The notes under the pieces were generated by a model. The model was not told the DNA's origin. It saw only the letters and a program-made list of their open reading frames with translations, and did no database searches. A stretch of 64,000 nt of DNA from Sanguibacter suarezii NBRC 16159 (GTDB taxonomy: Bacteria > Actinomycetota > Actinomycetes > Actinomycetales > Cellulomonadaceae). Shown here one piece after another: positions 51,595 to 57,567 of the stretch (positions are counted from its first letter, which is position 1; each line of letters begins with the position of its first letter). Location: NCBI RefSeq assembly GCF_001552735.1, contig NZ_BCRT01000010.1:62001-126000 (forward strand), in the 5' to 3' direction. The translations under genes and the position numbers were made by a program.

Positions 51595-53136
51595 TCAGGC
51601 GGTGGTGACCTCGAGCTGTACGACTGCCCACGACAACGGCGGCAGTGTGAGCTCCACCCCAGCGTCGACCAAACGCACGCCGTCGAGCGGCCTCAGACCG
51701 ACCTGCTCGCCGCTGTCGAGGGTGTTCGCCGTGAAGCGGTCCTGCCCGTCGGCGGCAGCGAGCACCTCGGCTCGGATCACCTTCGCTCCCGAGAAGCCCC
51801 GCAGGACCGCCTCGACATAGGCCGCCTCGTCGAGACCGCGGTTGGCGAGGAAGAACGCGACCGTCCCGTTCTCCTCGTCCCAGGTCGTGCTCACGTCGAC
51901 GAGGTCGGCGTCACCGAACTTCGCTGTCGAATAGCGGTCTGAGGTGACTGCCGTGCGCAGGATCTGGCCACGGGCGAGAGCGGCCATCCGGGCGAAGGGC
52001 CAGAAGATCGACTGCCGCCACGCGGGGCCGTTCTCCTCGGAACGGATCGGCGCGATGACGTTGACGAGCTGCGCTTGGTTCGCGATGCTCACTCGGTCAC
52101 CGTGGCGGAGCAAGGAGTTGAGCAAGGTCCCTACGACCACGGCATCGGTCACGTTGTAGGCGTCTTCGATGATCCGCGGGTGCTCGCGCCACCGACCACG
52201 GGCGCTGATGTTGTGCGGTTGGTCCTCGGTGTCCAACCCGCTCGCGTACCAGACGTTCCATTCGTCGAAGGAGAGATTGATGTGCTTGCTGTGCTTGCCC
52301 TTGGCTCGCACCGCGTCCGCAGTCGAGACCACCGACTCGATGAAGTAGTCCATGTCGACGGCGCTGGCGAGGAAGCTCGCGTGGTCGCCTTCGTGCTCCT
52401 GGTAGTAGGCGTGCAAGGAGATGTAGTCGACCTCTTCGTAGGTGTGGCCCAGGACAGTCTGCTCCCAGGCGCCGAAGGTCGGCATACCGGAGTTGGAGCT
52501 GCCGCAGGCAACGAGCTCGATGGTCGGGTCGACAAGCCGCATGGCCTTGGCGGCCTCCTGAGCAAGCCGTCCGTACTCATCGGCTGTCTTGTGGCCGATC
52601 TGCCACGGACCGTCCAGCTCGTTGCCCAGGCACCACAGCTTGATGTCGAAGGGCTCATGCGCGCCGTGCGAGCGGCGGAGGTCGGACAGGTACGTGCCGC
52701 CCGGATGGTTGGCGTACTCCACGAGCTGCCGTGCGGCGTCGACCCCTCGGGTGCCGAGGTTGACCGCCTCCATCACTTCGACGCCCGCGCGGCGGGACCA
52801 TCCGACGAACTCGTGCAGGCCAAAGGCATTCGTCTCCAGGGTGTGCCACGCGCCGTCGAGCCGGCGCGGACGGTCGGCGACCGGGCCGACACCGTCCTCC
52901 CAGTTGTAGCCGGAGACGAAGTTCCCGCCTGGGTACCGCACGACGGTTGCGCCGAGTTCTCGGACCAGGTCGAGCACGTCCTGGCGGAAGCCCTCCTCGG
53001 TGGCGGTGGCGTGACCCGGCTCGTAGATGCCGGTGTACACGCACCGTCCCATGTGCTCAACGAAGGAGCCGAACAGCCTGCGCGGTACCTCACCGATGGT
53101 GAACTCCCGGTCGATCGTGATCCGTGCGCGCGTCAT
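51595..53136 (-). CDS. abfA: Alpha-L-arabinofuranosidase, GH51
   Basis: Releases terminal arabinofuranose from arabino-oligosaccharides. 513 residues, no signal peptide, so cytoplasmic and acting on imported oligomers. FGSFVEHMGRCVYTGIYEP at the N-terminus, acid/base Glu in CLGNELDGPWQIGHK near 173, nucleophile Glu in SFDEWNVWYAS near 291, then a C-terminal beta-domain ending LPPLSWAVVQLEV, all as in GH51. ATG 53136 follows a GAGG site; a 23-codon upstream extension is not supported. Last gene of the four-gene sugar operon. Confidence 0.96.
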   Translation of the reverse strand: MTRARITIDREFTIGEVPRRLFGSFVEHMGRCVYTGIYEPGHATATEEGFRQDVLDLVRELGATVVRYPGGNFVSGYNWEDGVGPVADRPRRLDGAWHTLETNAFGLHEFVGWSRRAGVEVMEAVNLGTRGVDAARQLVEYANHPGGTYLSDLRRSHGAHEPFDIKLWCLGNELDGPWQIGHKTADEYGRLAQEAAKAMRLVDPTIELVACGSSNSGMPTFGAWEQTVLGHTYEEVDYISLHAYYQEHEGDHASFLASAVDMDYFIESVVSTADAVRAKGKHSKHINLSFDEWNVWYASGLDTEDQPHNISARGRWREHPRIIEDAYNVTDAVVVGTLLNSLLRHGDRVSIANQAQLVNVIAPIRSEENGPAWRQSIFWPFARMAALARGQILRTAVTSDRYSTAKFGDADLVDVSTTWDEENGTVAFFLANRGLDEAAYVEAVLRGFSGAKVIRAEVLAAADGQDRFTANTLDSGEQVGLRPLDGVRLVDAGVELTLPPLSWAVVQLEVTTA

Positions 53137-53176: not shown

Positions 53177-54085
53177 CTACTTGCCCCCGAACCCGGTGGT
53201 CGCAACGCCCTTGATGATCTGGCGCTGGAAGAACAGGAAGACGATGATCAGCGGAGCCGCTGCGAGCAGCGCGGATGCCATGTTCTGTGCGTACTGGACG
53301 CCGTAGGCGCTCTTGACGGTCTGCAAACCCACGGGCAGTGTCATGAGCGAGGAGTCGTTCGTGACGATGAAGGGCCACAGGAAGTTATTCCACGCTCCGA
53401 TGAACACGAAGATCGACACGGCGGCGAGGATCGGCCGCGACAGTGGCAGGACGATCGACCAGAACACCCGCATCCGGCTTGCGCCATCCATCCTGGCGGC
53501 GTCCTCGAGCTCTTCGGGGATCTGATCGAAGAACTTCTTGAGGATGAAGACCATGGCGGGGGCGATGGTCTGCGGAAGGATGATGCCCCAGTAGGTGTCG
53601 ACCATGTTGAGGGTGAGCATCTGGTAGAACAGCGGCACGATGAGCACCTGCGGTGGGATGACGATCGAGGCGATCACGACGACGAACAGCCACCGCCGAC
53701 CCTTGAAGCTCAGCCGGGAGAAGGCATAGCCGGCGAGAGCCGAGATGACCACCGTGATGACGGTGATGGCCGTAGCCGTCAGCAGGGAGTTGAGCGTCCA
53801 CCGCGGGATGTTCCCCTCGGAGAGGACCTTCGTGAAGGCATCGAGCTGGAACCCGCCTGCCGGGAGCCACGTCACCGGGGTGGCCCCGGCGTCGGCCTCG
53901 GACTTCAGCGAGGTGACGACCGCCCAGGCGAAGGGGACGAGCCAGGTGACCGCCAGGACGATCAGCACGACGAGGGCGGCGATGCGGCCTCCGGTGACCT
54001 TGCGGCGCCTGCGGCGGGCGGGGGTGGCGGGTGCGTCGGGGTGGACCCCCAGGGGAGGGGTCAGGACCTGTGCAGACATCATCAT
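53177..54085 (-). CDS. Carbohydrate ABC transporter permease (MalG type)
   Basis: 302 residues, six helices, with the EAA loop EELEDAARMDGASRMRVFWSIVLPLSRP near 199 (core EDAARMDGAS). The N-terminal 35 residues are basic and disordered. Three consecutive ATG codons (54085, 54082, 54079) follow AAGGAG at spacings of 3, 6 and 9 nt; the first overlaps the upstream stop (ATGA), the second has the best spacing. Partner of the permease encoded immediately upstream. Confidence 0.94.
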   Translation of the reverse strand: MMMSAQVLTPPLGVHPDAPATPARRRRRKVTGGRIAALVVLIVLAVTWLVPFAWAVVTSLKSEADAGATPVTWLPAGGFQLDAFTKVLSEGNIPRWTLNSLLTATAITVITVVISALAGYAFSRLSFKGRRWLFVVVIASIVIPPQVLIVPLFYQMLTLNMVDTYWGIILPQTIAPAMVFILKKFFDQIPEELEDAARMDGASRMRVFWSIVLPLSRPILAAVSIFVFIGAWNNFLWPFIVTNDSSLMTLPVGLQTVKSAYGVQYAQNMASALLAAAPLIIVFLFFQRQIIKGVATTGFGGK

Positions 54086-55029
54086 GAGCTCCTTCGGGCG
54101 GTCACCCGGAACTGCACGAGTGAGACGATGACGATGATGGCGAAGAAGATGTAGGAGATCGCTGCGGAATAGCCGAAGCGATAGCCGGTGAACCCGGCTT
54201 CGAAGATGTACTGGACGATCGAGCGGGTCGAGCCGTTGGGTCCGCCGTTGGTCATCATGTAGATCTGGTCGAATACCTTGAGCGATGCGATGACCTGCAA
54301 GATGACGATGAGCGCCGTCGTCGGTCCCAGCTGCGGGATGGTGATCGAGAACAGCTGGCGCCACTTCCCGGCGCCGTCGATCGCGGCTGCTTCGTACTGC
54401 TGCTCGGGGATGTTCTGCAGGGCTGCGAGGTAGAGCAGGAAGTTGAAGCCCACGGTCCACCACAGGGTCGTGACGACGACCGAGATCATCGCCCACTTCT
54501 CGTCCTGCAACCAGGCGATCGGCTCGACGCCGAAAGGTTCGAGCATGCTGTTGATGAGGCCGAGCTGCGGGTTGTACATCCACGTCCAGAACAGGGCGAC
54601 GACCGTGGATGCGAGAAGGAAGGGCATGAAGAAGGACAGTCGCCACAGCCATTGGCCGGGAAGGCCAATGTTCACCAGGAGAGCCAGGGCGAGGGCGACG
54701 AGGACGAGCGGCACCGTCGACAGGACCGTGAAGAGCGCAGTGTTGCCGAGGGACTTCCACATGACGGGGTCAGAGAGCGCCTCGCTGTAGTTCGCCAGGC
54801 CGATCCAGCTGCCGCCGGCGCCGGTGAGGGACTGACCGGTGAAGCTCAGGTAGAACCCGTGCACGATGGGCCACACCAGGAACATGATGAAGAAGAAGAG
54901 GAAGGGGGCGGCGAAGGCCCAGCCGGCCCGGTTGTCTCGTGAGATGCGTGCAGCCCGCCCGGGCCGGTCCTCGGCCGCTTGCGCGGCCGGGGTCCTCGAC
55001 ACTTCTCCTTGTGCTACCTCAGTGGACAT
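54082..55029 (-). CDS. Carbohydrate ABC transporter permease (MalF/UgpA type)
   Basis: 315 residues, six helices after a 35-residue disordered lead; WAFAAPFLFFFIMFLVWPIVHGFYLSF begins the membrane part (core given) and the EAA loop is YEAAAIDGAGKWRQLFSITIPQLGP near 230. ATG 55029 has AAAGGAG upstream. No ATPase gene lies in the operon; such systems commonly share a MsmK-type ATPase encoded elsewhere. Confidence 0.94.
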   Translation of the reverse strand: MSTEVAQGEVSRTPAAQAAEDRPGRAARISRDNRAGWAFAAPFLFFFIMFLVWPIVHGFYLSFTGQSLTGAGGSWIGLANYSEALSDPVMWKSLGNTALFTVLSTVPLVLVALALALLVNIGLPGQWLWRLSFFMPFLLASTVVALFWTWMYNPQLGLINSMLEPFGVEPIAWLQDEKWAMISVVVTTLWWTVGFNFLLYLAALQNIPEQQYEAAAIDGAGKWRQLFSITIPQLGPTTALIVILQVIASLKVFDQIYMMTNGGPNGSTRSIVQYIFEAGFTGYRFGYSAAISYIFFAIIVIVSLVQFRVTARRSS

Positions 55030-55077: not shown

Positions 55078-56421
55078 TCAGTCGGTGACGGGGTTGGGCT
55101 TGGCCATCAGCGCATTGAGCCGCCTGACGAACCCTTGGACGCCCGATGCGGCGTCGGCCTGTCCCATCAAGACGTTCTGGATGTTCTCGGCGAAGTAGTT
55201 CTGGAAGTCGCTCCCGGAGCCTGAGAACCAGGCTTCCGGGTCGTAGTTGATGAGGGTGGCGGCGTCGGCGTAGTGCGCCTGCGGGATGAGTTCGGCGTAC
55301 TCCGGGCTCTCGACGATGGGCAGGTAGCCGGGTATGTGGCCCGCCCCGGCCCAGACCAACGAGCCCTTGAGCAGCTCGGACACGAAGCGGTACACCTCGC
55401 GGCGCTTGTCTGGGTCAGGGGAGGACTGGTGGGGGAGGACAAAGGCGTGGGAGTCCCCGTACACCGCCGGTGTACCGAAGAGCGTCGGGATGGTGCGCGC
55501 ATCGAAGTTGATCCCTGAGTTCTTCATGGTCGGCAGCTCCCACACGCCAGTGAAGAAGAGCCCGCTCTCGCCGTTGAGGAACTCGGCGAGTGCCGTGCCG
55601 TAGTCGCCGGTCTTGGCGGCCACCGTGCCGTCGAGCAGCTGGGTCATGTACTCGAGGGATGAGACGGCGGCGGCTTCGTCGATGACGACTCTGGACCCGG
55701 TGAGGTCCATGTCCGCGCCCATCTGCTTGTAGAAGGTGTAGAACAGTCGCCACATCTGCGCGCCGTCGCCCAGGTACCCATAGGACAGGCCGTGCTTTCC
55801 GGTCACCGCCTGCATCTTGAGCGCAACCTCGATGAAGGCTTCCGGGCTGGAGATCTCTTGCAACTGCCCGTCTGGCCCCAGGACCCCGGCCTCGGCGGCG
55901 ATGTCCGTGTTGTACATGAGGATGAAGGGATGGGCGTCGAGGGCGATGGAGTAGAGCTTGCCGTCGACGAAGCCCTTGGTCCAGATCGCCTCGGGGAAGT
56001 CCGCCTCGGTGACGTCGAACTCGGCCAGCTGGTCCAGGTCCCACGGGTCGAGCAGGCCACCCGGGGCGTACCCGAAGATCCGGGACGCGTGCATGATCGC
56101 GACGTCCGGGCCGCGGCCGCCGGCGCTCGCCATGGCGAGCTTCGTGTAGTACGGCGTGCCCCAGGCGAGGACTGTCTGGTGGGCGTCGAAGCCCTGGGTG
56201 TCATTGACGGACTCGACGATGTTGGCCATCGTGATGCCGTCGCCTCCGGAGAGGAGGTGCCAGTACTTCAGGGAGATGTTCTGAGACTGCGCACTGCTCG
56301 AACAGCCTGAGAGCGCGGGGAGGGCGAACATCCCGCCGATGACGGCGAGGCTGCCGGTGAGCATCTGACGACGGGTGATTCCGCCGTTTATGCGGCTTTC
56401 GTCTGCTGACAATGGTTCCAC
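55078..56421 (-). CDS. Carbohydrate ABC transporter substrate-binding lipoprotein (SBP family 1)
   Basis: 447 residues. The N-terminus carries a twin-arginine motif TRRQMLTGS (Arg17-Arg18) and a lipobox LSGC (Cys40), so it may be exported by Tat and lipidated. Mature part: SLKYWHLLSGGDG, GRGPDVAIMHASRIFGYA, YSIALDAHPFILMYNTDI, and GESGLFFTGVWELPTMKNS, all typical of sugar-binding proteins. GTG 56421 has AAGGAG at 9-nt spacing; GTG 56430 is too close to that site. First gene of the operon, directly under the LacI/CRP-like control region. Likely substrate: arabino-oligosaccharides, inferred from GH51. Confidence 0.92.
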   Translation of the reverse strand: MEPLSADESRINGGITRRQMLTGSLAVIGGMFALPALSGCSSSAQSQNISLKYWHLLSGGDGITMANIVESVNDTQGFDAHQTVLAWGTPYYTKLAMASAGGRGPDVAIMHASRIFGYAPGGLLDPWDLDQLAEFDVTEADFPEAIWTKGFVDGKLYSIALDAHPFILMYNTDIAAEAGVLGPDGQLQEISSPEAFIEVALKMQAVTGKHGLSYGYLGDGAQMWRLFYTFYKQMGADMDLTGSRVVIDEAAAVSSLEYMTQLLDGTVAAKTGDYGTALAEFLNGESGLFFTGVWELPTMKNSGINFDARTIPTLFGTPAVYGDSHAFVLPHQSSPDPDKRREVYRFVSELLKGSLVWAGAGHIPGYLPIVESPEYAELIPQAHYADAATLINYDPEAWFSGSGSDFQNYFAENIQNVLMGQADAASGVQGFVRRLNALMAKPNPVTD

Positions 56422-56435
56422 GTCGTTCACTCCTT

Positions 56436-56451
56436 TGTGATCGTGGTCACA
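56436..56451. promoter_or_regulatory. CRP-family box at the arabinoside operon
   Basis: TGTGA-TCGTGG-TCACA, both 5-mer arms identical to the CRP/GlxR consensus. It lies just downstream of the -10 hexamer, over the expected transcription start. Confidence 0.7.
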
Positions 56452-56478
56452 CATTACAGCGTTGAAATGAAAGTGCAA
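56451..56478 (-). promoter_or_regulatory. Promoter and LacI-type operator of the arabinoside operon
   Basis: Minus strand: TTGCAC (56478..56473), 16 bp, TAATGT (56456..56451), start near 56444. The CG-centred near-palindrome CATTACAGC-GTTGAAATG (56452-56469; 7 of 9 pairs match) covers the spacer and -10, as expected for a LacI-family repressor site. Confidence 0.7.
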
Positions 56479-56517: not shown

Positions 56518-57567
56518 TCAGCGTGCTGGCAGGGTGCGCGCCCCGGTGCTGGCCCGGACGAGGATCGTGTGATCGATCGTGGCTCGGCGCACCGGGGCCT
56601 CGGAGGAGTTCATCCGCTCGACGAGCATCGTCAGCGCCGTCTCCGCGAAGGACCGCTTGTCGAAGGAGACTGTGGTCAGCGGCGGGATGGAGTGGCGCCC
56701 GTCGGCGATGTCGTCGAAGCCGGCCACCACGGTGTCGTTCGGGACCGTGTACCCCATGGACCACAGCGCACCCAGCGTGCCCAGGGCCATCGAGTCGGTG
56801 AAGCAGAAGAAGGCGTCGGGGAGGTCATGCGTGGCGAGGTAGCCGCGCACGGCCTCCGCGCCGCCGTCGGCCGTCCAGCCGTCCCAGCGGACCTCGAGCG
56901 TGGGGTCCGGGGCGATGCCGGCCTCCCGCAGGGCCAGCCGGTAGCCCTCCAGGCGCAGCCGCGCAGTCGCACGGCTGACCTCGGCCGGCGCGCCGACGAC
57001 GGCGATGCGCCGGTGCCCCAGGCTCAGCAGGTGCGCGGTCATGTCCCGGGCGGCGGCGACCGAGTCGACCCACACCTGGTCCACTCGGTCCTGCTCGACC
57101 TCCCCGATGAGCACGACCGGGGGGAGCGGGCCGGAGTCGGCGATCGCGCTCTCAGCCAGGTCCACCGGGTTGAGCACGAGGCCGTCCACGAGGTGCGCGC
57201 GGGCGCGGGAGAGCAGGTTCCACTCGCGGGTGGTCTGCGTCCCGGTCTCCTCGATCTGCACGGCCCAACCCTGCTCGTGCGCCACCTCGACAAAGTGGTG
57301 GGCGAGCTCGGCGGAGTAGGCGGTGGCCAGGTCAGGCAGGGCGAGGGCGATCACCCCGGAGCGGCCGTTGCGCAGCGCGCGAGCGCTGAGGTTGGGGACG
57401 TAGGCGAGCTCCTCGAGGGCCTTCTCCACCCGCGCGCGCGTCTCCGGGCGCACGAAGATGCCGCCGTTGATGACGTTGGACACCGTCTTGGGGGAGACCC
57501 CAGCATGCTGGGCGACGTCTTTGACCGTTGCTCGCACGGGCCTGCCTCTCACTGAGCGTGGCTCCAT
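56518..57567 (-). CDS. LacI family transcriptional regulator
   Basis: 349 residues. N-terminal helix-turn-helix TVKDVAQHAGVSPKTVSNVI (residues 15-34), hinge NLSARALRNGRSGVIAL, and a periplasmic-binding-protein-like ligand domain ending TTVSFDKRSFAETALTMLVERM. ATG 57567 is chosen; the frame runs 200 codons upstream through the YchJ-like gene in antisense and is rejected. It lies immediately upstream of, and in line with, the sugar operon, so it is the likely repressor acting at 56452-56469. The inducer would be an arabinose-containing sugar by context. Confidence 0.94.
   Translation of the reverse strand: MEPRSVRGRPVRATVKDVAQHAGVSPKTVSNVINGGIFVRPETRARVEKALEELAYVPNLSARALRNGRSGVIALALPDLATAYSAELAHHFVEVAHEQGWAVQIEETGTQTTREWNLLSRARAHLVDGLVLNPVDLAESAIADSGPLPPVVLIGEVEQDRVDQVWVDSVAAARDMTAHLLSLGHRRIAVVGAPAEVSRATARLRLEGYRLALREAGIAPDPTLEVRWDGWTADGGAEAVRGYLATHDLPDAFFCFTDSMALGTLGALWSMGYTVPNDTVVAGFDDIADGRHSIPPLTTVSFDKRSFAETALTMLVERMNSSEAPVRRATIDHTILVRASTGARTLPAR

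Follow-up and report, generated by a model that had tools for sequence, protein, structure and literature searches.

The window analyzed here, a 64,000-nucleotide stretch of the Sanguibacter suarezii genome, carries on its minus strand an operon in which an ABC sugar-binding protein gene is followed by two permease genes and then by an arabinofuranosidase gene, whose product we take to be a GH51 enzyme. A lacI-family regulator gene lies upstream, and the promoter is located between it and the GTG start of the sugar-binding-protein gene (Table 1). A spacer of 16 bp separates TTGCAC from TAATGT. The LacI-type operator, TTTCAACGCTGTAA, overlies the spacer and half of the −10, while the CRP/GlxR-type box, TGTGACCACGATCACA, shares one base with the −10 and adjoins the Shine-Dalgarno sequence at its other end. 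A strict sigma-70 scan did not call the window promoter. The arabinoside operon promoter TTGCAC-N16-TAATGT that a preliminary description had placed here is nevertheless borne out, with the ABC importer and arabinofuranosidase genes following it on the minus strand.

Table 1. Features of the operon and its promoter region (window coordinates)
Feature	Coordinates	Strand	Basis or detail
lacI-family regulator gene	56518..57567	−	upstream of operon, co-directional; HTH VKDVAQHAGVSPKTVSNVI; PF00356, 61.4 bits
Predicted −35 hexamer, TTGCAC	56473..56478	−	sequence; TTG position kept in relatives
LacI-type operator	56454..56467	−	CG centre; 5/7 symmetric pairs
Predicted −10, TAATGT	56451..56456	−	first three bases within operator, last base within CRP box
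Perfect CRP/GlxR-type box	56436..56451	−	10/10 match to TGTGA-N6-TCACA; predicted −7 to +9
Predicted transcription start, A	56444	−	7 nt after −10; inferred from −10 position
TCAC-N6-GTGA around Shine-Dalgarno AAGGAG (56435-56430)	56427..56440	−	sequence and leader comparison
ABC sugar-binding protein gene	55078..56421	−	GTG start at 56421; PF13416, PF01547
ABC permease 1	54082..55029	−	ORF and profile match
ABC permease 2	53177..54085	−	ORF and profile match
Arabinofuranosidase gene	51595..53136	−	NF051901 arabinosylfuranosidase ArfA, 721.8 bits vs cut-off 625

The operator is conserved well beyond the window. From 80 homologous loci we used 62 (L009-L020, L039-L088), which reduce to 53 distinct promoter segments, the window included; the 18 left out (L021-L038, 44-51% identity) constitute a subgroup that is further removed and differs in its operator sequences. 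The sequence TTACAACGATGTAA is matched at 11 or more of 14 positions in 49 of the 53 distinct promoters, window included, and L048, L060, L069 and L082 lack an operator at that threshold. Full 7/7 operator symmetry occurs in 11 of the 62 close loci. Variants at the same place include TTACA[A/T]CGATGTAA and others. In these relatives the operator sits between a TTG −35 and a −10 whose start is formed by the operator's last three bases, and the bases after the TAA of the −10 are variable. In 45 of 49 distinct promoters the TTG precedes the operator by 11 or 12 bases, which makes the spacer 16 bp (24 cases) or 17 bp (21) long. We presume that the genera carrying the motif belong to the Cellulomonadaceae, Microbacteriaceae and Micrococcaceae.

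A LacI homolog accompanies the operon in 43 of the 62 loci, upstream and co-directional in 41, including the window, and divergent in two. Its helix motif reads SPKT[V/I]SN in 32 of the 43, AKTVSN in seven and MKTVSN in two, with two unreadable by pattern. No LacI homolog was found at the other 19 loci, some of which offer little upstream DNA while in others 5 kb was searched; those lacking one despite 5 kb upstream include S. suaedae, six Arthrobacter-type loci and more. Excerpts of PMC4052901 give an even palindrome with a central CG as the hallmark of LacI-family operators. TTTCAACGCTGTAA is such a palindrome, and a conserved lacI gene is adjacent to it. The CG-centered LacI operator described earlier over the spacer and −10 thus agrees with its recurrence in the 49 promoters, and we regard it as very probable that a LacI-family repressor acts through this predicted operator at the window promoter.

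The pattern TTNCANCGNTGNAA has three sites in the S. suarezii genome, against none for the control. One is in the operon promoter, one lies over the start codon of another arabinofuranosidase gene and one comes before an MFS gene. At the second of these (L091, 1501-1514) the operator overlaps the start codon of the arabinofuranosidase gene (PF06964, 114 bits), and at the third (L090, 1501-1514) the operator-like TTACAACGATGGAA lies just 5′ of the transporter gene (PF07690). A second LacI-like palindrome, approximately TTGTG-NN-CGCTAACAA with small variations, is present upstream of the −35 in all eleven Arthrobacter-type promoters considered below. In the distant group, six loci with the same transporter (L026, L028, L029, L031, L032 and L035) have a divergent LacI with the motif SWKTVSN and AACGTTG-centered repeats near the gene, which suggests that LacI helix and operator changed together.

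Perfect TGTGA-N6-TCACA boxes number five in the 3.8-Mb genome versus none for a reversed control, and with at most one mismatch the counts are 37 versus 8. Within the 64-kb window the operon box is the only perfect match, and there is one further match with one mismatch; at this one-mismatch setting, two or more matches arose in 13 of 100 window shuffles. Two of the four other perfect boxes (L004 and L006, 1501-1516) stand before a family 2 glycosyltransferase gene and an OsmC-like gene, and the frames tested next to the remaining two (L007, L008) gave no Pfam match. A family search placed Crp-type helix-turn-helix domains at three positions in the genome, one of them in a 230-aa open frame. 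This frame matches M. tuberculosis CRP entries as well as 4cyd, 4byy and 3r6s, identifying it as a GlxR ortholog; we take the three structures to be C. glutamicum GlxR. The QLVGASRETVNKALADFA stretch of the protein is identical to M. tuberculosis CRP. Of the five further genomes of the genus, four have GlxR at 91-98% identity, and all seven genomes examined have a class III cyclase domain. The operon box is plausibly a candidate GlxR site.

Boxes scoring at least 8/10 were sought from 4 bp before to 100 bp after the operator end in the 49 distinct promoters, and ten promoters have one. In eight of these it lies at +2 from the operator end (the window and seven Arthrobacter-type promoters), in one at +10 (S. 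suaedae) and in one at +18 (Cellulomonas sp. PhB143, in which GlxR at 81% identity is present together with the box); seven of the eight promoters with the box at +2 have related sequences. Among the 16 named Cellulomonas loci, PhB143 is the only one whose 300 bp upstream include a box scoring 8/10 or more, L060 ending at a contig end. The Arthrobacter-type promoters number eleven (L061, L063, L068, L070, L071, L072, L074, L076, L077, L081 and L083); L068, titled Sporosarcina beigongshangi, is counted here on account of its promoter and of a matching genome in the genus group of the others. In these eleven, +2 gives the best mean box score among 144 placements (7.36; mean 2.47, sd 1.00), followed by a placement over the −35 at 6.73. 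Five of them, grouped after the boxes had been seen, keep 7 of 10 half-site columns invariant, compared with 0 of 38 columns that follow. Operator and Shine-Dalgarno are 88-140 bp apart in these five, and the box is therefore tied to the promoter there. The remaining six show similar conservation in half-site and middle columns (0.82 vs 0.83), and in two of them little of the box is left.

We also searched for the strict stacked pattern, an operator plus a box 0-24 nt apart. It occurs in 4 of 396 genomes of the order, a set that does not include S. suaedae, against 1 in the control. One of the four matches is the window locus. Two others are genomes from a single further genus, where the match sits in AT-rich sequence, and in the fourth the box is 20-odd nt away; in the stretches examined none of these three is the operon of interest, at which the pattern thus occurs only in S. 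suarezii itself among the 396 genomes. In a second family, presumably the Micrococcaceae, 8 of 295 genomes match, versus 2 in the control. Four of these have a 2-bp gap and all lie at the homologous operon, while the other four show scattered gaps and lie elsewhere. The 2-bp-gap matches are not independent evidence, since their promoters are the same as L061, L068, L071 and L083.

A doubly repressed catabolic promoter is, in our assessment, the best explanation of this arrangement and a fairly probable one. The neighboring LacI-family protein would bind the CG-centered operator in the spacer and −10 and block RNA polymerase, and an arabinose-type inducer would free the operator from it; we infer both the repression and the inducer. 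The cAMP-loaded GlxR/CRP ortholog would occupy the box over the predicted start and block initiation or escape, interference being the likely effect of box occupancy because of the promoter geometry. For GlxR binding, its sign and the cAMP logic at this operon we draw on C. glutamicum and M. tuberculosis, and with these as analogs repression by GlxR at the predicted box appears reasonably likely. Full expression would need both an inducer to remove LacI and low cAMP to remove GlxR. Should cAMP levels on glucose be high, as they are in C. glutamicum, the operon would be on only with inducer present and glucose absent.

The palindrome may instead be incidental, with TCACA belonging to a TCAC-N6-GTGA leader element, TGTGA having arisen by chance or drift, and LacI acting as the sole regulator. 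Of 42 distinct leaders, 32 retain TCAC before the Shine-Dalgarno, with operator and Shine-Dalgarno 14 to 92 bp apart, compared with 48 of 331 in a leader control that includes the leaders of interest. All ten leaders without TCAC are Arthrobacter-type; L081, which the Shine-Dalgarno pattern missed, was excluded from the 42 and also has no TCAC. Among 25 distinct leaders of the strict form TCAC[AG][AG]AGGAGTG, a box of at least 8/10 occurs in the window's alone, leaving 24 without one, and TCACRARGGAGTGA occurs once in the S. suarezii genome. Because TCAC is kept beside the Shine-Dalgarno without a CRP box, the TCACA half has a CRP-independent reason to exist, and half of the window's box may be incidental. 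S. suaedae, the nearest relative, adds to this case. Its perfect box also stands beside the Shine-Dalgarno, 8 bp further from the promoter than in the window, and so follows the Shine-Dalgarno rather than the promoter; the assembly, rated 99% complete, has no GlxR match at E≤0.001, and no LacI homolog was found within 5 kb upstream of its operon. A search for the glxR neighborhood in the terminal stretches of its 23 contigs, up to 20 kb long, gave only weak matches of 34-43% identity. Gene loss, or an assembly gap that took the neighbors too, would be possible reasons for the missing GlxR match. Yet TGTGACCAC-N-ATCACA is kept in both Sanguibacter species despite an adjacent 8-bp indel and diverged flanks, and the Arthrobacter-type boxes stand in the window's register without a link to the Shine-Dalgarno. 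We judge an incidental palindrome to be somewhat unlikely.

The same leader element could act at the level of RNA, with UCAC pairing with GUGA around the Shine-Dalgarno so that the leader controls translation. Predicted folds of the window, S. suaedae, Cellulomonas and Clavibacter leaders do pair UCAC with GUGA in a stem that leaves the Shine-Dalgarno in its loop. However, the folds of five leader pieces are at best slightly more stable than those of shuffles (z −1.29 to +0.37), and the window leader from its predicted start reaches −5.1 kcal/mol (z −0.45), or −9.4 if begun 3 nt too far upstream. No compensatory changes in the TCAC/GTGA stem were seen among the leaders compared, where TCAC hardly varies, and Arthrobacter-type leaders break the stem; control of this kind is very improbable. 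It is also improbable, to a lesser degree, that TCAC is an old gene-specific leader element, a protein or RNA site, to which Sanguibacter added TGTGA, so that a GlxR start-site box reuses its bases. The gene-specific TCAC-N6-GTGA around the Shine-Dalgarno is the least explained part of the promoter region. As for the sign of a GlxR effect, excerpts of PMC4254451 present GlxR of C. glutamicum as activating in most cases, and it might activate the window promoter or another one from the box. Here the box shares sequence with the −10 and extends to the Shine-Dalgarno, there is no fitting promoter downstream, and lacI, the gene upstream, is co-directional. CRP activation from this box was rejected on this geometry, and we consider an activating role highly unlikely.

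For double repression, the reading we prefer, several related systems can be compared. In portions of PMC2230225, PMC4254451 and PMC7999487, repression of gntP/gntK and aceA/aceB by GlxR is reported for C. glutamicum, as are higher cAMP levels on glucose than on acetate. The window promoter resembles gntP, gntK, aceA and aceB in pairing a cAMP-CRP ortholog with a consensus site, and the gnt genes combine GlxR repression with the specific regulators GntR1/GntR2 (PMC2230225, PMC7999487, in the portions consulted). Unlike at gnt, the specific regulator here would be a LacI-family protein, with its predicted operator placed right next to the box. For CRP-Mt, the M. tuberculosis ortholog, sections of PMC4117774 describe sites clustering at −60 to −40 and +1 to +20, and binding near the start that goes with repression, frdA included. 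The frdA case is similar to ours in having an orthologous protein and a box over the start, which in the window is predicted; it differs in that a LacI operator is not mentioned in those sections. Excerpts of PMC5928203 likewise predict that the LacI-family proteins AbfR and AauR of Bifidobacterium control arabinofuranosidase and ABC transporter genes; unlike our proposal, the excerpts name no CRP layer at these genes, and the likeness is one of regulator family and target genes. In the open-access literature searched, nothing among the matches listed concerned the operon, regulation in Sanguibacter or a LacI operator next to a GlxR box at genes for arabinoside use.

These comparisons support the preliminary description in part. 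Its perfect TGTGA-N6-TCACA is present at 56451-56436 with 10/10 matches, and the start that it was said to cover (56444) is a prediction. Its proposal that a CRP-family protein would block rather than activate is favored by the geometry, which speaks against activation, and by the CRP-Mt analogy, from which the sign at the box is drawn. Of its two layers of repression the LacI layer stands, whereas the CRP layer is weaker, as TCACA is tied to the TCAC beside the Shine-Dalgarno and the S. suaedae box is shifted and has no GlxR match to go with it. The promoter joins known parts in a sound but fairly ordinary way and adds one more instance to kinds of control already known. For the LacI-family arabinoside regulator, the comparison supplies an operator motif, TTACA[A/T]CGATGTAA. 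If the double repression is true, this compact promoter would depend on the presence of inducer and the absence of cAMP-GlxR, and CRP would serve as a catabolite repressor, not an activator, of a plant-sugar operon.
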